A stretch of 64,000 nucleotides of DNA from Nymphaea colorata (lineage: Eukaryota; Streptophyta; Magnoliopsida; Nymphaeales; Nymphaeaceae), in contig NC_045148.1 of the NCBI RefSeq assembly GCF_008831285.2, forward strand, positions 434,001-498,000, in the 5' to 3' direction. The notes under the pieces were generated by a model. The model searched no databases. It saw only the letters and a program-made list of their open reading frames with translations, and was not told the origin of the DNA. Positions 17,672 through 58,200 of this stretch are shown here, piece after piece. The number at the start of each line of letters is the position of its first letter. Position 1 is the first letter of the stretch. A program made the position numbers and the translations under genes.

Positions 17672-20494
17672 TCACAAACTGGCCAAGAGTTGGTGGAGAG
17701 TTGGGCGGAGGGAGGGAAGGACCACGGACCAGCCGGCCTGGGTTGGGTGCACGCTGTCCCAGAAGAAGGTGTACCATGGACTCGAACACACCTGGTACAG
17801 CCTGTTCCCTTGTTGGTCCATGCTGCCGCAATTGCTGGCCGAGCTCACTCCCCTGCAGCATGGCTTCAGTGGGTCCTTAAATTTCGAACCTGCAATATGG
17901 AAAAAAACTTTCACATGCATTAGGAAATTGCATGGATTGAATTTGAATTTAAGAATTAACATGATTTCATCAGATTTGAGTTCAGATTTAAATGAATATA
18001 GGGCGGATTCATATGAAATTTTAAATTAATATCTTATATCTTTATGTATGAAAGTTGGTTCTTAACATGTCGCAATGCGGTTTAGATTTGGTTTGGAAGT
18101 CAGATTCTGATTTGGCTGTAAATTTAAAGATCAGATTCAGATATGGTAAGACCTTTGTTCATGCGTATCTGCAATCCCAATATATAAAACATTTGATATG
18201 ATAGAGTGCACCCGATTCCAATCTGGACCGTATAAATTAGAACTCGACCCATGCGTATATTCTATCTATTTAGAGAAAATAATGTGAAATTTTTTACGAA
18301 TTTACGAAAATTTCCAGAATTTGAAGTTAAAATATTCGCATCTTGGCCAGAAAGACGCACTTACGGGTGTTTCTTAGCTGCCAACTGGCCGGATTTTTAA
18401 GAAAACTTTGGGCCCGACCGTTTCCTTAAGATTTCGAACCCGATCCATATTCAGGGCGTCAGATTTGGGCAAAACCAGCAGCATTTTCAAAAAATCGGCT
18501 CCCGTCAAGCCAATTTATCGGCCGATATTATGCTTTATAAAAAATCGTCTTCGGCAGAAGAAGGGAAAGGTCGCGTTCCACAGACCTTGTAATGCGGACA
18601 AAAAGGCGCCGTAGAGATCAAGGATCGCAACTTGAGATGGACGGCCGAGACGAGCGTTGATCGCATCGACGGCCGCGCGCAGGGCCGCGTTGTGGAAGCC
18701 CACGTATCGATTCGAGGCGTCATCGCAGGCCGTGTAGGAAGTCCGCAGCGTATTAGTCGGCAGGCAGCCCACCGGCTGCAGCGCTACCACCGCCACTTTC
18801 CGGACCCCCATTTGCACTATCCTCTGTATGTTCGCTGCCGTCCGGTTCACCACCGACTCCACAAACCCCTTCAAACCCTAATTATTAAAATCATATAAAA
18901 AAAAAACACATTAAATTATGTTCGTAGAGAAAAATTCAGTTTATCGGATTCAAGCTTGAAAATTTTACCAAACCAATTAATGCATCCCTAGATCTGGACC
19001 GGAGCGAACCAAATCCATTATTATTTGATTTGCATCCGGTGGTTTCACTTTATCGTTTTAATAATTATGTTTCCCAGAAAGAAAAAGGGAAAAGCAACAC
19101 ACTTCTACACTGCAGTGTTCTTTACCCTTTTAAATTATTGTATATGGGAGGACTATGGTGGGCCTCATGATTTGTTTTCTTTTTTTCTTTTTCTTTTTTT
19201 TAAATAATTTCTTGGGGTGCGAAAAAAATTTCAAGACCTGCACCTGAATTTCAATAAAACCCCAAAAGTACCCAGAATAGAAACAATTAGAAACTTGATA
19301 AGAAAGGCGTCATTAGGGTTGGGCTGTTAAACGAGTCGAGTTAACTCAAGCTCCACTCGAACTCCCTCGCTCAATAAACTTGACTCGTTTATTAAACAAG
19401 TCGAGTTCGAGTTAAAAAATGAACTTGACAACCTAAACGAGTCAAACTCGAGTTAAGTGAGCTCGGTTCGGTTACGTTCGATAAAAAAAATATAAAATAT
19501 GTCTCATAAAAAAGTAAATTGCTCAAATAAGTATACATAGGAGGTTTTTCAAGTATATGCGGCTTCTTCCTTTAACATGAACAGTACTAATAGGACCAAG
19601 CACGCTCACTCTAATACCCGGAACCGAGTCTAACAAAAAACCGAACCGATATCCTACTGACTGTGGAGATCACACTGGTCTGAACTCAGGGCAATCCGAG
19701 TCCTACTGATATTTGATTGTGGTTGCATAGGCATACCTGCATGGTGCCATTTCTAGCAAGGTATGCACTGTAATCGTTGCCTGCAACCGATACGAGAGCC
19801 ATGGACGATCCGAGTTCCCACTCCTGATACTCGCCTTCATCAATCAGTTGCTGGAAGAGATCAATCTGTGTGGTCATGTTTGGCAGAGAGACAAGTGTGT
19901 CGAAGACGCCGGTTCCTCCGAACGCAAAGTTCATACCGAACCGCTTCCGATTCCCAGCAAATTGTCTCACTCTGTAAGGAATCGGAGATTTGATCCCCAA
20001 ATAGGAAGCTGCATGCACGAAAACAAACACTAAGTTTAGGTAGGATCATGCGGATCAGCACATCAGAAACCGGGTTTGAATGGTAACTGTGTCCAAAATG
20101 AAGCTTCATCTAAAGCGGGTATGGACCCGGTTATCAAGGGTCCGACTGTTGGCCACCCTTTTATCCCCAAAATGAGATCCAAAATATTAAGAGTCTGAAC
20201 AAGTTACGATACCCGAGAACCATAATTAAGTTGCTCCAAATCAAAATAGACCAACAGAATTTGTCCTTTAAGAATAACTCCTTACTAAAAGAAGGCCTGA
20301 AACAGCATGCTTTCGGAATTCGACTAAAAACACTAAGCAGCGGTTCATTTTAATATGAGGAAAAGAAAAGCACAAAGGCAATAAAGCACTAGTGGTTTAG
20401 TTGGCGACTCGGTCTTACTTTGCGTCATTCGAATTTTGAATTCTGACACGCATGACAGAAACTTTCAACTACTATATCTTAGTAGTTTTCTGAG

Positions 20495-20564
<70 letters not shown>

Positions 20565-21434
20565 TAGATGGAAGCCATGGATACAAGTAGTTACTGAGGA
20601 ATAGTCCTCAAACTGTGCCTGTAAGCAGGAAGTATTAGGCTTCTGTAACTCGAGCTTCGACAATTCAAGCGAGTAGTGAAGTTCATGCTTAACAATTCTA
20701 CAGATTCATTTAGTATTAAAGGAACAAGCCTTAGATCGAATCTTTCAAAAGCTAAATGCTTTTCTTCAAGAATCTTGTTATTTTGCCACTTAGATGCCCT
20801 TCATAAACAGCTGCCTAGCACAAGAAGCTCCTTATTTAAATGGATTGGCATCTCAAGAACAAAGAACGGTGATTAGAAACAAATACTTTTCTAAATGCAC
20901 CAATCAGAAAACAAACGGGGGTGTTTCTTTTATACAATACACAGTGCAGCTGGTTTAATTTGGAGTTCTGTGATCAATTCAAAGCCAAACAGAAAGAAAA
21001 GATGAAGTTGATCGAGGCACCACAGCAAAGCTAGCAAAATAAAGAGATCAGAAAAGACGTTACCAACAAAATCAGTCAAGACGCGGCCGTCGGAAAACCG
21101 GCCGGTGGGTTTCCCCGGAAAAGTGATGCCGTAAGGATCCTTCCACGAGTTCGCTACTGATTTCCCAATGTTTCCTGTGTCTACATAAGAGTCTCCAAAA
21201 ACAAAGAGCATCCGGCTTGGCCCGTCGTCGCGTTGATGGTGACCATGGCCGTGGCTGTGACCTTCCAATTTGGTGCCTAAGCATCAGAATTTTAAAACCG
21301 ACATCAGAGACATACAATTCCTCCATCAATCCAATCTTCACTTGTGACGATTTACATCAGAAAACTCTTAACAAAATGAAGAATTTACCTAAGAGAAGCA
21401 CCAGAAGTAAGCCTAGAACCGGCCCTGCACCCAT
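17672..21434 (-). CDS. GDSL esterase/lipase, array copy 1 (intact)
   Basis: Five exons in transcription order: 21434-21389, 21276-21064, 20008-19737, 18877-18586, 17889-17672 (stop TGA); intron phases 1,1,0,1; 346 aa. A hydrophobic signal peptide (MGAGPVLGLLLVLLLG) is followed by a His-rich linker (HSHGHGHH) and then block I FVFGDSYVDTGN with nucleophile Ser45. GMNFAFGGTGVFDT marks the subfamily, block III AGNDY carries Asn164, block II-like QPVGC carries Gly214, and block V DSVHPT carries Asp319 and His322. Family knowledge: SGNH/GDSL plant enzymes are usually secreted acyl-ester hydrolases; the GTGVFDT signature and PNMTTQID resemble Arabidopsis At5g03610 and At3g09930. The substrate is unknown. 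First in a tandem run of four genes on the same strand. Confidence 0.93.
20498..20562. repeat. (TA)n microsatellite in intron 2 of GDSL copy 1
   Basis: About 32 perfect TA dinucleotides. They create a false YIYIY reading frame on both strands. The tract lies in the 1.06-kb intron between exons 2 and 3. Confidence 0.95.
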
Positions 21435-31270: not shown

Positions 31271-34200
31271 TCAAGAGAATAAATGTTGAAGAGTTGGGCG
31301 AAAGGATTGAAAAATTGTGGTCCAAGTAGCCTGAGTTGGGTGGTTGCCGTCCCAGAAAACTGCTTTTCCCGGGTCATCACATACTTTATATAGCGGTTTC
31401 CCGTTCCCATCGGTGTCTCCGCAGCTGCTACCTGCGGCCGTTCCAATACAGCATGGCCGAAGCGTACCCTCAATTCCTTGTCCTGCAAAAGAGCCATGAG
31501 AGATCTCATAATTTTCTCATTCTACGTGGAAAGGGATTCCAAGAACATGTATGGGAGACGTGAGAAAGTGGTACTCTTTAGAAAATCTTTGTCTAAAGAA
31601 TTGCCTAAGAATTGGCCCATGACCATGACAAAACCAAACCAAGGATTGGCCTCCAGCAAGTTGCTAGTATGACGTTGAACCATCTTGGATCTTGGAGGAA
31701 GGAAGTATACTGTTCAACAAGTCTTTACGATTATTTTATGCTATGCTTCAGCTTGCATCTCAGTGTTTCCTTTCGAAAGAACATGTATGGGAGACGTGAG
31801 AAAGTGGTACTCTTTAGAAAATCTTTGTCTAAAGAATTGCCTAAAAATTGGCCCATGACCATGACAAAACCAAACCAAGGATTGGCCTTCCGCAAGTTGC
31901 TAGTCTGACGTTGAACCATCTTGGAGGAAGTATACTGTTCAACAGGACGACTATTTTATGCTATGCTTCAACTTGCATCTCAGTGTTTTCTAGTGTTTAA
32001 AATTGACACAAAGTTGACGTTCAAGAACAAGGTTGAGTTGAATAATTGGATAAGGCAAAACACTTACTCAATTTGTTATGGCGGTGAACCAGCGCCTGCA
32101 ACGTGTCGAACATGTCGAATACCGCAATGCGCGATGGACGGCTGGGATGAGCATTGATTACATTGATGGCTTTGTGGAGCAGGGCATTGTGATAGGCAGC
32201 ATCTTGATTGAACGCTTCCATGCATGAGGAGTAAGATGTGTTTTGAGTCATGATCGGGACGCAGCCTGCTGGGCCCAGACCGAGCACACCTATCCGTCCT
32301 ACTCCTAGCCTGATCAGACGTTGCAGGTCCACTTCAATCTGGTCAACCACTGAACGTACGAAGCTCCTCAGGCCCTGGATCGCCAATATTTCAAAATTAT
32401 CTTATATATATGTATGTCTAAAAGCAGATCATGAATTACATCGTTTCCATGTTTAAGCGTATGAGAGTGAAAAAAACAAGGACATCAAAGTTTAACCGCT
32501 TTTAATTTTCTAAAATCTACCGACTTACAAGAGAATGATTTTGTTGGAAAACTATGATGCAAAACATGATCTTTAGGAAAGCAAACACTAGTGTTTCAAG
32601 AATCTGTTCTAAACATTAGACTATCTTATTGGAATATTAATTATAGTGGTCCATGAACCTTCTTTAATTTTTAGACAAATTTATGAGACATTTATAGTGT
32701 TTTTCATACCAAACAACTTTTTAGAGGTCGTTTGACAACTGTTAGTCTCATAATCTGCCAGAAAATGTACCAGCTTCATGGAAACTTTGTTATGGTGTCC
32801 TATGAATCCGCCCCATTCTTTGGGACAGTAAAGTACTGTTAATTTTAGCTAACAACCTCTTAATGATAAACAAATTACATTCACTAAATGAAGTGAACGC
32901 TGTTTTGACCTTGGGGCACATGTTCTGTTCCTGGTAATTGTATATATATGAGGTCCAAAAATTTGATTCTTGCAATTAAAAGGGCCTCTAGAAAATTATG
33001 ATTAATTTCTGCACACAGACCAGGATGCATAACTACCTCAAATTGAACCCTTTTGGTAACAGATTGAAAGGAAACCGGGTCGTGACCAGAATATCCGAGA
33101 CATCAAGAATTGGACCAGAATTCGTACCGCAACGGTGCCGTTGTGAAAGTTGAGGTAGGATACATAATCGTCGCCGGCGAGGGAGATAAGAGCCATGGAT
33201 GACCTCAGTTGCCGGGGCCGGTAAGTGCCTGCCTTGATCTCCTCCTCCAAGAAGTCGATTTGCGTTGTCATGTTTGGCAGAGGGTAAATTGTGTCGAAGA
33301 CACCAGTCCCACCATAAGCAAAGTTTATCCCATATCGCCTTCGGTCCCCCGCGAGACGCCTCAATCTGTAAGGAACCGGAGACGGAACTCCTAGATAGGT
33401 AGCTGCATGAAGATGCCAATCAAGTGGTGTTCATGTTCTAAAAGTCAAATGCGAAGTGGCAGCCCATTTATGATCCAACCAGAAGCCGTGTTCATTCAAT
33501 ACACCAACCTATTTAATGGAGACGCAGTCACGCAGGGTACGTTTCTTTGATTTTTACTTGTTTTTTACACAAATAAAATTTTCTTCTTCTTTCTTTTTGC
33601 GATTTGATTCTCTAACTTTTTCCACTTACTGGTTGTAATGTTAGGCCAATTTCAACAACATTGGTGGCATCGTTTGAGAGCATATTGCTCTGAGAAATTT
33701 TACGGTGATATGATGATGATGGAGGACCATTTTGGAGAAGATTGTGGCGGAGCCCATGAGCAAAACGAGAAAAGATGGTGGCACTTTCAGTGGCCCGAAT
33801 CGATTGGCCAGGAAAAAGAAAGAGCCTTTCATGAAGCCTAAACTTGACACTCTATAAAAGTGCAGAATGGTTCCACCAAAGCACAGTGCTCCTCTTCTTC
33901 TAAGAAGCATCTCCATTCTCTTTGTGGCCCATACGTAGTGTAAAGATGTGTATCAGAAGAAGATAGTGCTGACTAAATGGGCAGATAGAATATTTCTAGG
34001 ACATCCTGTCTCAAGTTTTAAGTATAATTAACCTAATGAAACAAAGACGTTAACAGAAACATAAATGAGGGTAAGGCCGGGATGGTCAAGTCGGCTAGAA
34101 ACCAGCACTTTACTAGAGATAAAGCCGCTCTTGATTAATGCGGATTCAGATCTGCAGTTTCTGATCTCCGACAACGCCCCTCCAAAAAAAAAAGAAAAGA

Positions 34201-40998: not shown

Positions 40999-41659
40999 TT
41001 TTAGCACAATAAGAACCATACACCAGCGAGAGAAGGTCTAGCGAAGAGGTTTGATGTTGCTACAATGAAACTTTTACATTGTAGCATGTAACGCCCGCTA
41101 ATTGAGACTGATACGACTAACAGAGGTTTGATGAATTGAGTTACATGCTACAATGTCAACAATCTATTTCAAGTTTCATTGATAATTGATCTCATGAATC
41201 GAAAACGACAAAAACAAAGCTCATCTCTTCAATCGCGATCAATTTTAAGATATACATGCCCCAACTTTTTTGATGGGATAACTCGTTATTAATTTATGGG
41301 ACTCGGAAAAATTCTCAGAAGGCTCCATTGAGCTATATGGTCCATACGACCAAGAGGTACACAAGGCCTAGATTTATTCTACAAGATGATGCGAGTTCAA
41401 TTCTTGACAGATGCATCCAGTAGACTCAACTACGTTATTATACATAAGTTGTGCATAACTTGGATTCAGGCCAGCAGCTGGTCGAGGCTGGGGCGGTGGT
41501 ACTCGACTAAGGCCTTCCAGGCAAAGTGGCTGGGGTGGCAGCTGTCCCACCAGAAGGTAGTCCACGGGAGGGGGCAGAGCGTGTACTGCTTGTTCCCACT
41601 GCCGTCCACTGTGCCGCACCAAACCATGATGTACAAGTAGTCAACTACACCATCAACAC

Positions 41660-42407
41660 TGTTGGGTTGGGTCCAGCCTCAAGAGAGGACTCGACTCGAT
41701 CCGACCTGTCACTTAAGTGACTGGCGGAGGAAAAGTAAGGTCACCCGATGGTGCCCTTCTCTCTCACGTTTCTCTCTCTCTCTCTTGGGTTTTTTTTTTT
41801 TTTCTTGAGGAAAAAGAAAAGAGGAGGTTTCTTGTGACTGCACGCAACAAGAGGAGAAGAAGAAGAGAAAGGCAAGAAGAAGAAGAAGGAGAAATTGCAG
41901 AGGCAAGAAGAAGAAGAAGGAGAAATTGCAGCAAGGTTGCGTGGGTTGATCGGTACGCCAAGAAGAGAGAGAAAAGACAAAGAAGAAAGAGGAAATGAAG
42001 GGAGTCTTCATTGGGTGATCTCTTTCTTGTTTCTTTGGAGCTCTTTCTTTTATTTGTATAAAAGAGTGTTATTGTTTTCTTGAATTTACTGTTTTCCTTA
42101 AAACAGTAGGGGTATTACTGCTGGTGTATTTGGCTCTCTTTCTTGATATATAGAAAGTCTTTCTTGCCCTTAGTTTTTTACTCTATTATTCGAGGTTTTT
42201 CCACATAAATTGGTGTCTCTTGTTTTTTGCATTATTTAGTATATATTTTGATGTATATTGCTGCAACATTGGTATTGAAAACTTGATCTTATGCTCGCAG
42301 TCCAGGGATTCTGATTTTCAACAGTTTTGTTCGACTATCATACTAGTTGGTTTGACCTGTTTTATTGTTGTTGAAGCATTTTTTTTTTAAGAAAAATGAC
42401 TATAACA
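41660..42407 (+). mobile_element. Solo LTR A, 748 bp, in or at the start of exon 5 of GDSL copy 4
   Basis: Begins TGTTGGGTTGGG and ends GACTATAACA, so TG..CA ends lie within TGTT..AACA. It is flanked on both sides by the perfect 5-bp target duplication AACAC (41655-41659 and 42408-42412). It contains a CT-rich stretch, an expanded GAAGAA tract (about 41850-41935) and a TATA-like TATAAAAGAG (about 42056-42065). There is no internal coding region and no second LTR nearby, as expected after LTR-LTR recombination. Plus orientation, opposite to the host gene. Confidence 0.92.
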
Positions 42408-42980
42408 AACACCCCGCTTGGTTGCTAAAAAGCTATGCAGTGGGCCTACTGGGCCTACATCTCATGTATTACATATAGGCATGTACCATCTCATTTGGTG
42501 TGAATCAAATATACGTAAAATCAAATATATGTGTGGACCTTTAGAAGCTTTTAAAAGATCTGTTGGACCCTCTAGCAGTAGTTGAGCAGTTGGTTGTGCA
42601 GCTGAGAGAGACCATTGTAGAGTGAAGAGCATTGAGTGAAGTTGGTCGAATATGTCGGGGTTGGACTGCAGCCTATGGGCTGCAGGTTTGTCACGGCCAC
42701 CCTCTTCACGCCCAGATTGTGCAGCCTCTGCGGATTTGCTGTGAGCAGCTGCACTACTTTCGGCCTGAGGGCATGAGACCCTGCGGAACAACGATTAACA
42801 TCAACTTGCCCATGTTGCGGCAGGAGTTGAACTCACGTGAAAGACCTGAAAATACAAGACCCCTAACACTTAAAAGGATCAAATTCCTACACGTCTTCCG
42901 TTCCAAACTTGATGGTGAGAAGTGTTGATCTTGGGATTAGAGAATTAGAGATGCTGTGCAGGCCAAGTGGACCAACTGTT

Positions 42981-43013: not shown

Positions 43014-43738
43014 AAGAAACTAGGGATTTACATTTATAAAACATGAGACCTTGATTTTTATTATATATCTTTATTAGTTAAATGTTTAGTACTCATACAT
43101 GTAATGCATTTATTTTATTTGGCAGGTACCATGGTTCAGATTATGCCTTGTTCATTTGAAACTTGAGTTTCTAAACCAAAACCAATATATTTTCTCATAG
43201 TTAGATTCCAACTGAAATGGGAATCCCCAAAAGATTGCATAATCCACGCCTAGCTAGGCTGGCACAACATTCAACTAATCGATTTGAACTTGGTCACATA
43301 TGCAATTTGAATGTGAACTGTTTATACCCCTAATAAGGTAGTTGGATCTAATTAATATTGTTACAGATTGAAGACTCCACTTCCCCTAATGCTTCAGGTT
43401 GGGGCCTGTTTAAAAGAAAAGAAAAATATAATCAAAACAAAAGAAATAAGGAAATATATTGTTAGTAGTTACCGCGAGGGAGCCATTGGTTCCTCGATAA
43501 ACTCTACAGTCGTTGCCTGCATAAGAAACGAGAGCAACGGAGGAATCCAGATGGTCAGCATAGAGCCCACTGTTGATCAGCAGTTCGAACTCGTCGATTT
43601 GCTGTGTCATGTCCGGGAGGCCTGTGAACGTGTCGAAGACGCCGGTTCCTCCATAGGCAAAGTTCATGCCATACCGTTGAAGCAGAATAGAGTCATTTCT
43701 CTTAGTGTATGGAACTGGAGAAATCAGATCCATGTATG

Positions 43739-44391
43739 TGTTATAGTCGTAATCCCCAAAAATGCTTCAACAACAATAAAAGAAGCCAAACCAATACAAA
43801 ACTGCTGAAAAACGGAATCACAGGGCTACGAGCATAAGATCGAGTTTCCAACACCACTATTGCAGCAATATACGTCAAGATATATGCTAAACAATGCAGA
43901 AAAGAAGAGACACCAATTTACGTGGAAAAACCCCCAATAATAGAGTAAAAAATCATGGGCAAGAGAGACTTTCTATATATGAAGAAAAGGAGCGAAATAC
44001 ACGAGCAGTAATATCCCTACTGTTTTAAGAAAAACAGTGAACTCAAGAGAATAATAACACTCTCTTATGCGAATGAAAGAATGAGCCCCAAAGATTCAAG
44101 AAAGAAATCACTCAATGAAGACTCTCTTCATTTTCTCTTTCTTTTTTATCTTTCCTCTCTCTTCTTGGCGTGCCGATCAACCCACGGCGCGCTGCGATTT
44201 CTCCTTCTTCTCTTCCTTGCCTTCCTCTTCTCCTTCTCTCCTCTTCTCTTGCTATGAGCCCGCCACAAGAGGGAGCCTTTTTCTTTTTCCCCAAAAAAAG
44301 AAACACACTAGAGAGGGAGTGAGACGTAAGAGAGGGGCACCATCGGGTGCCCTCCTTCTGGTCGGGTCTTGAGGCTGGACCCGACCCAACA
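43739..44391 (-). mobile_element. Solo LTR B, 653 bp, same family as LTR A, inside exon 3 of GDSL copy 4
   Basis: Read on the minus strand it begins TGTTGGGTCGGGTCC and ends GACTATAACA. It is flanked by the perfect 5-bp target duplication GTATG (43734-43738 and 44392-44396). It aligns along its whole length with the reverse complement of 41660-42407; the length difference comes mainly from a shorter GAAGAA region. The insertion point is 8 nt inside the exon 3 acceptor. Confidence 0.94.
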
Positions 44392-45653
44392 GTATGTAGC
44401 TGCACATGCGGCATTGCATCTGTTAGAGTTTTGTTTATTCTTTCAACGTAATGGAAATCTAACTAAAATTTCTAACATGTATAGACTATAAATTATTATA
44501 TACACATCCAAATAAACTGATCCAACAATGAAAGAAGTTCTGTGAAATATATACATATGTATACGATGCCAACATCTGTATTGATGGAATTCTGAACAAA
44601 TCAAAGAAATTTAACTTCTCTGGTGTCGGACAGATCCAGAATCCAACAATGAATTGGTATTCGATTCCATTAGATTATTCTCTCAGATACCCAAAGAGAA
44701 AAAAAATGACCAGTGCCAAGGATGAAATGGAAAACAACCGAGTTGCAAAAGCATACCTACAAAGTCGGTCATGACTTTACCGTCGGACCATCAACCGGTG
44801 GGGTACAAAGGATATGTCTCACCGTAGGGTTTTCTCAAAGAATAGTATGGTTCATCAGGATTCTCTTTATTTCCGGTGTCGGCAAAGGAATCACCAAACA
44901 CGAATAGCCTTCGGTGTTCTAAGCTTTTCAAACTCCGACCAGTCTGCAGATTCTCCGCTTTGATACCTACAACTGTGATGGAACAAACAAGCTTCAGTTT
45001 GCTAAGTCAAATAAAAAGAAGCTCTCAAGTTTTACCAAATGTCCAGTCAGGGCAGACGGAAGCTGGTTATATGCACAGTCCGGAAACGCTAAAAAGGATG
45101 AATCATAGTTTCTAGTCCAGCTTAGATTCACGGGTCAGTTTCTAAGTCCTGCAATTTACAAACTCAACAACTACGTCTCCATTATTCACCAAGCGACAAA
45201 CCCCCAAAGTTAAGGACGCATTAATAATGAAATAAGTTCTGTTCCAGTAAGTGTTGCAACAAGGTGTTATATGTAAGCATTGATGAGAAGTGCATGTGTT
45301 ACTATCATCTACAGTCCAGGATGATCTTTGAAAGCAAAATTCTGCGTCACAAATCCAAAGCTCAAAACCTTATTTCAACACCATTGAAAATAAGTGGTCA
45401 GTCGCAACTCGCAACCCAATGCTAGCCAAGGGCATTAGGTATAAAATTTTAAGGGGCACCAAATGAAAAAAATTACTCAAAAATAACAATATAAAAATAA
45501 AAAGTTTTTCGGGATACATGCAAACAAGTGGTCCATATAAACAATTACCCACATATAACCCAGGAACTATCATTAAAGTAGCTAAAAAGAAATAGAACAA
45601 TTACCCAAAAGAGAGAATATCACGAATAAGCCTATCGATGGTCCTGCAGCCAT

Positions 45654-48823: not shown

Positions 48824-49174
48824 TCATCTGCCGTTGCCGGAGTTCGGAACGATCTTGATGATCAAGCCGGGGAAGACATCATCTGGGTCTTGAATGTGAG
48901 GGTTGTTCTCCACGATGAAAGGGTCGCCGCATTTCTCACTGATAGTGTTCAGCGTCTCCCCTTCTCTCACCACATATATCTCTTCGCACCCATGACCATG
49001 CCCCATTGCATGACCACCATGATGCATCAACATCCTCAGGTCATTCCTTACGTCTTCGATCTGATGATAACAATCCAAATCCAAGCAACACAGAGACGCC
49101 ATCGTCATGGCCACCATGGCCATGTAGAAGCACCAAGTCGTGAACGGTGGTGTTGATGATTTGGCCATCTTCAT
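48824..49174 (-). CDS. Small LysM-domain protein A
   Basis: Single exon, 116 aa. An N-terminal hydrophobic segment (about residues 13-31) suggests a signal peptide or anchor. A Met/His/Gly-rich linker (HHGGHAMGHGHG) follows, then one LysM domain at about 66-109 with YVVREGETLNTISEKCGDPF and DPDDVFPGLIIKI. Family knowledge: small plant LysM proteins of this length carry one LysM motif; some LysM proteins bind chitin or other GlcNAc polymers, but no role can be assigned here. There are two candidate starts, Met1 and Met3. It is divergent to LysM protein B and nearly identical to it across the domain core. A TTATAAG box lies about 36-42 bp upstream of the first ATG. Confidence 0.88.
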   Translation of the reverse strand: MKMAKSSTPPFTTWCFYMAMVAMTMASLCCLDLDCYHQIEDVRNDLRMLMHHGGHAMGHGHGCEEIYVVREGETLNTISEKCGDPFIVENNPHIQDPDDVFPGLIIKIVPNSGNGR

Positions 49175-51496: not shown

Positions 51497-51868
51497 ATGC
51501 CAAAACCATCATTAACTTCCTGGTACTCATCCGTTGCCATAGTCGTCCTCGTGGTTCTTTCTTGCATGGATTGCAATAAGAGAGAGGCGATGAACCAGAG
51601 GATGCTCTACCATGATCATCATCATCAGCAGCAGCAGCAGCAGCCATGGAGACGTGTGTGTGATGAGCTATATGTTGTGCAAGAAGGGGAGACACTGAAC
51701 ACCATAAGCGAGAAGTGTGATGACCCATTCATCGTGGAAAACAATCCTCACATCCAAGACCCGGATGATGTCTTCCCTGGCTTGGTCATCAAAATCACTC
51801 CTCCAACCATGGCGGCTGATTTAGTTATATATAAGTCTCATCTCTGCGAGGCTGGAGAGGACATGTAA
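51497..51868 (+). CDS. Small LysM-domain protein B
   Basis: Single exon, 123 aa. An N-terminal hydrophobic segment (about 11-23) is followed by a His/Gln-rich stretch (HDHHHQQQQQQP, about 39-50, encoded by CAT and CAG repeats) and one LysM domain at about 58-101 with YVVQEGETLNTISEKCDDPF and DPDDVFPGLVIKI. It shares nearly the whole domain core with LysM protein A and is transcribed away from it, so the two are probably an inverted duplicate pair. It has a longer C-terminal tail (AADLVIYKSHLCEAGEDM) that protein A lacks. Ligand unknown. Confidence 0.88.
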   Translation: MPKPSLTSWYSSVAIVVLVVLSCMDCNKREAMNQRMLYHDHHHQQQQQQPWRRVCDELYVVQEGETLNTISEKCDDPFIVENNPHIQDPDDVFPGLVIKITPPTMAADLVIYKSHLCEAGEDM

Positions 51869-55229: not shown

Positions 55230-58200
55230 TCACATTTCCAGGAACTTGACCAGAAGAACCCTTTACATTTGCAGTTTCTGCCGTAGCCTGGGTAGTGATA
55301 TATGATTTCTTGATCTAAACACACGTGTAATTGTCAATGAGACAAATGTGCTACTCATATCCAAGTCGAGAGTCATAAAAAGTAAAAAGTAATTACAAGG
55401 TCTTGAAGAATGAGGAACACGGATAAACTAAATGCCTAAATGTACTGCGAGAATGTTCTAGTACGTCCTTTCTTGTCCACAGCATGGTAATTAAGAGAGA
55501 TTGGAGACCTTCCAGAACCTGTCACATAGGTGCAGGGTGCGTGTCCAGACAACAATTTTCAGAAAAACTTGGCAGCCGGCAGAGTGAATACACACACACA
55601 CACAATCGAGCATGCCAAAAAACAACAAATATAGTCTCAAAATGAACGCCATAAAATATATTCAGTTCTAACAAAATATGCCACATCAAAAAGTCCTAGG
55701 CCATATGAAACATAAGAATGCTACAGACATATTAATATAGATCCGAAAATCGACTAATAATTTTCCAAAAACATATTGCAGAGGGAGAGAGTCTTTGGCT
55801 ACAGAAGAGCGCATTACATCGAGAGCTGGCCATGACCAGGTCTGCTGCATCTAATGAAATTTGCAAGAGAGACGCAGAGTGAGAGTGACATTGCGAGAAT
55901 GAAAGAGAATCTCGCTGCTGATGCAATATAATGGAGTGAGGCAGAGCATGAGAAAAAAGAAACTGAGGGAGAGACGGCACCAAGAGTGGGAGAGCAGGAG
56001 CAACAGTTGAGGAACATGCCCTACCCCTTTTATAGTTTTCTTTATTTGTTTAGCTAAAAAACGACAAATATAGACTCAGCCAACATTGTCTTGTTTCTTG
56101 GACACAAATAGTCCAGGTGCATACCTGACCTAGTTCGACCACTCTTGACCCACCATGAACTCAAACATACACATTTATTTTCGAAAAAAAACAGTCTGGT
56201 GCAGTCAGTTTGACTGATAATTTTACCGCACCAGAGCAGTAGCCTGCACCTAAGACATGTCAACTCCAATGGGGCAAACTTTTAGGCAAGTCCATGTCAC
56301 TTAGTCCTGAACCAATTTGGGTGCCAGATAAACCATGTAAAAGATGTCAGTTCAATCAAATAACTGAAGCAGTTGTGTCCCTCTATCATCGATTCTTGTT
56401 TGTCCCCAAATCCATGGGTATGCAGACCAGTTCAAGATCAGGCCAAGTAGTAGAGATGAAGTCAATTAGATCATTAATAGGTCAACATACATTAACAATT
56501 TTATAGCGGAAGGACTAAACTTACAGCGACCATTCGTTGCTTGTGGATATCGTTCACAGGCTGCAGACAACCACCCAAGCCAAGCAGTGAGATTTAAAGA
56601 AATGAACCTACCTAACTATCTCTAACTGCCCTCAAATCATGGGAACCACTTACAGGCTTCTTAAAGATCTTAATCTCATCCGCACTAAATCCTGGGAGTG
56701 TCATATTCCAGTTTCTCTCTGCAATAACCAGAAAAAATGGAGAAAAATGAACACCATTTACTACTACAGCCAGTCAACGAAAGTAAATAAAAATTCAGGT
56801 AGATGCCAAAATCTTACCCATGTGTAAAAGTATGTCTTTTGCTTCTAATGTAGTTGATTTGCGATGTTTGGCCAAGGAACAAGCAAAAGTTGTTATCTGC
56901 CCAAAAAAACAAATACAATATGCAAGCTATATCATGCATGCCATAGTCAAGAACAACTGATTCTGAAAGTATTTGAAGGGACAAAGAAAATCAGGACTGT
57001 CATGTGCACCAGTAATATTATTCCTGCACATATTAGGACAGAAAACATGACAAGTCCCATGTTATTTCAGCTTTTTCACAATTTCAATGATCTTTTCAAT
57101 AATAAATAAATGATCTTTTCAATAATAATTACATTTTGTATATTAAAGTATTAGAAAACATATTTTACCAGTACAAGAAGTAATCTTTAGAATTAAATTG
57201 ACCATTCGTTCTGGTACCAGTATCGAATAAGTGTGTGCCTGTTCTACAGACAATCCACAAAATGCTATACTATTAAATATATAAAATGCCAAGTTCAAAA
57301 AGATCAACTTAAAAGGCCTTTCAATTTCACCAAGACTGACGGGTGCTAATGTTTTCAGAACTCGATGCAAATCAAACCAAGCAACATTCTTTAATTTCAA
57401 CCCAAGGTCTTTTCAATAATAAATACATTCGTAAATTAAAGTATTAGAAAACATATTTTATCAGTACAAGAAGTAATCCTTAGAATTAAATTGGCCATTC
57501 GTTCTGGTACCAGTATCGAATACGTGTTGTGCCTGTTCTACAGATAATCCACAAAATGCTATACTATGAAATATATAAAATGCCAAGTTCAAAAAGATCA
57601 ACTTAAAAGGCCTTTCAATTTCACGAAGATTGACAGGTGCTAATGTTTTCAGAACTGGATGCAAATCAAAACAAGCAACATTCTTTAATTTCAACCCAAG
57701 GTATGAAGCAATAAACGAAAGGAAAAAAACAAACAAAGGAAAAGCTGTTGTCCACTGACAGACTTGTAAGATGACTGATGACTTACAGATTCAACAAAAT
57801 CATCAGCAATCTCTGCCAGAACATCTTCAACTTCTGGATCCAACCTCTCCAATGGATCAATCTGCCAGGATCACTTGTTAAATGAGAATGAGAACTGATA
57901 CTATGATTCTCAACCATTCATGCAAACCCAGACCTTATAAATCCAAACTACTAAATAGTTTGGCATTATAGGAAGAAGAAACTTTGTAATGCATGCGCCA
58001 TGCCCTTAACTCTGAGTTCCTCAGTAGACTAGGTTGCTTGCTACTCATTTTATCGTAATAAACCGTGAGAATGAATGTCATCCAAATCCATCAGAAGGGA
58101 TGAGGTTTGCATCAAGCAACTAGAAAAGAAAAAAAAAAATTCTGAGAGTTGAACTCATGATAGTTTTCATCCCTAATCAAGCTAATGGTATCCAATATAA

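Follow-up and report, generated by a model that had tools for sequence, protein, structure and literature searches.

Insertions of LTR retroelements in plant genes have been described in two systems that resemble, in part, the locus reported here. In Arabidopsis, the element Evelknievel lies in exon 13 of CMT1; splicing removes it from some of the transcripts, and one splice variant is reported to use an AG made at the LTR border (PMC6238269). In torenia, a solo LTR of TORE1, whose LTR measures 560 bp, is put down to recombination between LTRs (PMC4234012). Our study concerns a solo LTR, E1, inside exon 3 of a decayed GDSL gene copy (copy D) in Nymphaea colorata, together with a second LTR, E2, in intron 4 of the same copy. 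The window is the whole stretch of DNA that was analysed, 64 000 nucleotides long (NC_045148.1, positions 434 001 to 498 000 of the forward strand). E1 and Evelknievel are alike in being LTR retroelements in a coding exon of a plant gene; however, Evelknievel has both LTRs and can be spliced, whereas E1 is solo, lacks the border splice site and sits in a gene that is otherwise disabled (PMC6238269). TORE1 and E1 share a single LTR, 5-bp target duplications and a similar LTR length, but TORE1 lies in a promoter and occurs in full-length and solo forms, whereas E1 lies in a coding exon and is found at its site in the solo form alone (PMC4234012). A literature search joining solo LTRs and GDSL genes led nowhere, and rotifer work surfaced.

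GDSL array and copy D

The window carries a minus-strand array of GDSL genes, three copies of which have an open frame:

17672..21434, minus strand: GDSL copy A, five exons, open frame of 346 aa
24672..28915, minus strand: GDSL copy B, five exons, open frame of 352 aa
31271..36611, minus strand: GDSL-like copy C, five exons, open frame of 344 aa (among the open copies, the Pfam scan covered A and B)

The array probably belongs to the At5g03610-like subgroup of plant GDSL proteins. Membership of the GDSL lipase/acylhydrolase family was indicated by matches of copies A and B that span almost all of the PF00657 profile (101.1 and 107.4 bits, the curated cut-off being 23.6), whereas copy D is a remnant: four of its pieces were scanned and the exon 4 piece alone passed (25.5 bits). 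A search of solved structures with copy A gave two weak matches, both named as GDSL-family esterases. Exon 3 of copy C (33200-33140) reads AGDD where copy A has AGND and copy B GGND. The Asn of this block is presumably catalytic in GDSL enzymes, and copy C may be altered in activity through the AGDD reading. Elsewhere in the window, local direct repeats were seen at 31541-31925 (149 nt, 97 %, spacing 236) and at 57135-57702 (100 and 175 nt, 94 and 96 %, spacing ~294), and two similar small frames, which we assume to be LysM-like, form an inverted pair at 48824-49174 (minus strand) and 51497-51868 (plus strand) with the common stretch YVV.EGETLNTISEKC.

A genome search with exon 3 of copy D returned 14 matches, all of which were scored; among these were the window copies A, B, C and, over residues 2-90, copy D. 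The nearest others were two paralogues, P1 and P2, 1.8 Mb off on the same contig. P1 shares 92 % of residues with copy D in this exon, and P2 matches in two pieces (89 and 91 %), the second of which contains a TAG. A third nearby paralogue (72 %, residues 1-86) is likewise uninterrupted in exon 3. The exons of P1 measure 49, 210, 269, 277 and 209 nt; translated separately, they total 1014 nt, which is divisible by three. P2 itself (L041/L043, C11:2326875-2329146) looks decayed, with the break of frame at the TAG in exon 3 and an altered acceptor of exon 2. Copy D was laid out as follows:

45605..45653, minus strand: exon 1
44757..44966, minus strand: exon 2, in which a CGA of P1 and P2 is replaced by an in-frame TGA (44793-44791)
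44397..44399, minus strand: first 3 nt of exon 3, before E1 (8 nt counting one target duplication)
43473..43738, minus strand: remainder of exon 3, counting one target duplication
42581..42780, minus strand: remnant of exon 4, with a 1-nt deletion near its start and its second half gone
41466..41635, minus strand: remnant of exon 5, its acceptor and first part gone

Exons 1 and 2 are complete save for the stop, exon 3 is interrupted, and exons 4 and 5 are partial. The second half of exon 4 has been taken out by a net deletion of ~245 nt relative to P2, and 8 nt present in P1 and P2 are missing upstream of this exon. At the start of exon 5, in the interval from the E2 site to the remnant, copy D is ~57 nt shorter than P1. 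The exon 2 stop, the 1-nt deletion and the losses in exons 4 and 5 are all absent from P1 and P2. No intact five-exon reading frame was found in copy D, which carries a stop, a frameshift, deletions and an insertion. Copy D is a pseudogene with multiple damage, in which E1 is one among several disabling lesions; it should not be taken for a gene that the E1 event is known to have disrupted. Purifying selection on its exon 3 (dN/dS 0.23-0.29 against A, B and C) was considered and set aside, as dS is near saturation at 1.6-1.8.

E1, its empty site and its relatives

The element and its duplications occupy the following positions:

43739..44391, minus strand: E1, solo LTR of a Ty1/copia family, 653 nt, assigned from its termini, duplications and genomic relatives
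43734..43738, no strand: target site duplication GTATG of E1, one copy, read from the letters
44392..44396, no strand: target site duplication GTATG of E1, other copy, read from the letters

A preliminary description of this DNA had proposed a 653-bp element with TGTT..AACA ends and identical 5-bp GTATG flanks, and this was found to be exact to the base. The ends of E1 read TGTTATAG and CCCAACA, and its sense strand is that of the host gene, with the U3 end at the high coordinate and the U5 end at the low. It lies 8 nt into exon 3 of copy D, the fourth copy in the array, as the same description had placed it, and its removal restores the exon in phase and in length: without E1 and one GTATG, exon 3 has 269 nt after the acceptor GTGCAG, as in P1, and reads ATYMDLISPVPY with the frame open throughout. 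The standard phase and near-standard length that had been claimed for this exon also stand, since exon 3 of copies A, B and C measures 272, 275 and 275 nt in equal phase. On alignment over 90 residues, the restored exon has 47, 48 and 48 in common with A, B and C. With E1 in place, translation from the original acceptor runs into a stop codon 30 residues on. Element and duplication together add 653+5 nt, which is not a multiple of 3, so that the frame is shifted in addition to the added stops.

The site was also seen without the element. When the flanks of E1 were aligned to P1 and to P2, they met with a 6-nt overlap on each, which is what a 5-bp duplication leads one to expect, with one further base by chance. 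P2 reads CAGCTACATACATGGATC at the site, and its GTGCAGCTACATACATGGATC equals copy D minus E1 and one duplication, letter for letter; P1 differs by one base, within the target. The perfect empty-site signature of the earlier account thereby has an exact counterpart in P2 over the target, and one a single base off in P1. This empty site is documented in paralogues of the same genome, not as an allele of this very locus.

At the borders of E1 no primer-binding site, polypurine tract or internal sequence was found, and host exon lies on both sides. A search of the plasmids collection with E1 gave no match. The genome of N. colorata itself (407.8 Mb, 783 contigs) yielded 321 candidates, 40 of which were scored; these gave 40 LTR-sized places, one of them E1, and 8 short fragments, and the 39 other LTR-sized places match E1 at 83-91 % identity. 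By manual count among the scored candidates, 24 of the 40 LTRs form 12 direct pairs, 11 of them spaced at 4.7-4.9 kb and one at 3.45 kb. The interior of one pair, taken in two pieces, encodes Retrotran_gag_2, gag_pre-integrs and rve, followed by RVT_2; in this one relative, integrase precedes reverse transcriptase, which is the Copia order. At one LTR border of the inspected pair the sequence runs ..GACTATAACA and then AAGTGGTATCAGAGCC, with TGGTATCAGAGCC shortly after ..GACTATAACA; at the other LTR border the purine tract GGAGGGGGAGTT stands immediately ahead of TGTTGGGTC. In 7 of the 12 pairs (contigs C1, C2 and C8 among them) both LTRs score equally against E1. The Copia family of E1 has probably been active lately, equal-scoring LTR pairs being what recent insertion would be expected to leave.

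Twenty of the 39 relatives were fetched (15 without a scored partner and 5 from pairs), and the E1 termini were present in all 20, with up to 3 substitutions tolerated in 15 nt at the start and up to 1 in 10 nt at the end. A primer-binding site was seen at one border in 9 of the 20 (degenerate in 1 of the 9) and a purine tract at one border in 10, counted by eye. The single relative with neither has a 4-of-5 duplication. One or other feature is thus found in 19 of the 20 fetched relatives, and neither at E1 or E2. E1 is a solo LTR of a Ty1/copia retrotransposon: all but one of the fetched relatives have the primer-binding site or purine tract, whereas E1 has neither and is flanked by host exon. 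This upholds the solo LTR reading of the preliminary description, supported by the paired relatives, their Copia coding frames and the primer-binding site and purine tract beside their LTR ends.

The second LTR and the ancestry of the locus

Copy D contains a second LTR of the same family:

41660..42407, plus strand: E2, solo LTR of the family of E1, 748 nt, in opposite orientation to E1, in intron 4 shortly before exon 5
41655..41659, no strand: target site duplication AACAC of E2, read from the letters
42408..42412, no strand: target site duplication AACAC of E2, other copy, read from the letters

E2 is identical to E1 at 543 of 652 ungapped positions, and no primer-binding site or purine tract was found at its borders. 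It is placed in intron 4 because exon 5 of P1 begins ~37 nt beyond the E2 site; a placement inside exon 5, to which the joined flanks had aligned, was withdrawn on this ground. In P2, E2 occupies the same site and agrees in duplication and orientation, and P1 is without it. In a tree of 23 LTRs, E2 of copy D groups with the P2 copy with a support of 1.000. The two remain together, at 0.973, in a tree of 31 LTRs in which many deep supports are low, and which adds 8 relatives (chosen by rank, plus two partial) from the 39 listed besides E2 in a genome search with E2. Some relatives outscore the P2 copy in that search, and the P2 copy has a deletion. One partial relative (L049) has a raw distance to E2 of 0.145 over 503 positions, equal to that of the P2 copy. 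That E2 is the older element was also argued from its long branch alone; this argument was dropped, the branch having become shorter with the P2 copy in the tree.

Between copy D and P2, E2 has diverged by a K2P distance of 0.145 (62 transitions and 21 transversions), or 0.154 in a larger alignment, and windows of D against P2 from 45089 to 41348 lie below this, at 0.025-0.118, a range that sets aside one misaligned 50-position window at the E2 site. The extra divergence of E2 may be due to methylated LTR DNA decaying faster. As E2 is common to copy D and P2, and E1 is found in copy D only, the sequences place the insertion of E2 before the split of D and P2 and that of E1 after it.

The copy D locus is of mixed likeness. 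From 46031 to 45090, 74 informative sites join D to P1 and 24 join it to P2; from 45089 to 43682 the counts are 10 and 14, and from 43681 to 42581 they are 31 and 74. These sums omit 46277-46032, where P2 is poorly aligned, and the rows past 42581, where gaps interrupt the alignment. Copy D is therefore nearer to P1 upstream and nearer to P2 downstream, with the switch falling within ~45.1-43.7 kb, where E1 also lies. The likely cause of this switch is gene conversion or unequal exchange between copies, and the mixed likeness means that neither P1 nor P2 is a simple ancestor. E1 is read as a plain insertion despite the switch, because of its matching duplications and the exact site in P2.

E1 and E2, being in opposite orientation, raise the idea that a transcript of copy D, if made, would fold back as a long double strand and yield small RNAs that contribute to silencing that Copia family or related GDSL genes. 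The minimum-energy fold of E1 and E2 has 579 pairs between the arms, a count taken without a shuffled control, and we regard such silencing as improbable.

Explanations weighed and significance

The reading that we prefer, at a probability of about 0.95, is that a Ty1/copia retrotransposon inserted in exon 3 of copy D, duplicating GTATG, and that later recombination between its LTRs left E1. The retrotransposon would have integrated 8 nt inside the exon; its two LTRs would then have recombined, with the internal region looped out and one LTR staying behind. This event would come after the insertion of E2 in intron 4 and after the duplication that separated D and P2. Our data show directly the insertion with its duplication, the paralogues with the site empty, the family to which E1 belongs and its lack of internal sequence; the recombination route to the solo state we infer from the form of E1.

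Ends and duplication do not make this case by themselves. Structures of the form TGTT..AACA with identical flanking 5-mers, 300-1500 nt long, occur 9 times in the window (E1 and E2 included), against a mean of 3.62 and a range of 0-7 in a first-order Markov null of 50 resamples of the window; ends plus duplication were accordingly dropped as sufficient proof of insertion, and it is the exon and the genomic relatives that carry the case. This abundance lends something to the view that the termini and the repeated GTATG bracket, by chance, part of a normal gene that is either diverged sequence or an extension of an intron. We nevertheless consider that view extremely unlikely, as the termini recur in every fetched relative, both P2 and P1 lack the element at this site, and the exon is restored once E1 is removed. 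The insertion is taken as settled because of the shared termini in 20 of 20 relatives and the paralogues that have the site without the element. It is also very improbable that E1 is a complete short non-autonomous element, such as a terminal-repeat retrotransposon in miniature. E1 is indeed short, with TG..CA termini and a duplication of 5 bp, a form that E2 shares; however, such an element needs two internal terminal direct repeats, and a comparison of the first with the last 300 nt of E1 gave none (best 10/10 nt). The relatives that match E1 in their ends and approximately in length are LTRs belonging to longer elements, and paired relatives were found with a primer-binding site directly outside an E1-type end.

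A further alternative leaves the insertion in place and supposes that copy D yields a useful message from which the LTR is spliced out. Splicing of an exonic retroelement has a precedent in Evelknievel of Arabidopsis CMT1 (PMC6238269), and copy D keeps the original acceptor GTGCAG and the donor GCG/GTAACT. However, the border of LTR and duplication, AACA/CATAC, offers no AG, unlike the frame-keeping CMT1 variant (PMC6238269), and the message would still meet the TGA in exon 2 upstream, the 1-nt deletion and the loss of half of exon 4 and of the start of exon 5. A useful product of copy D is thus highly unlikely, and the insertion followed by LTR–LTR recombination stands as the preferred reading of the locus.

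In summary, the E1 event is well documented yet ordinary, and leaves general understanding unchanged. It provides a clean case, resolved to the base, of retrotransposon insertion in a coding exon for which the same genome supplies natural empty sites, and E1 and E2 together allow steps in the decay of a single duplicate gene to be put in sequence.
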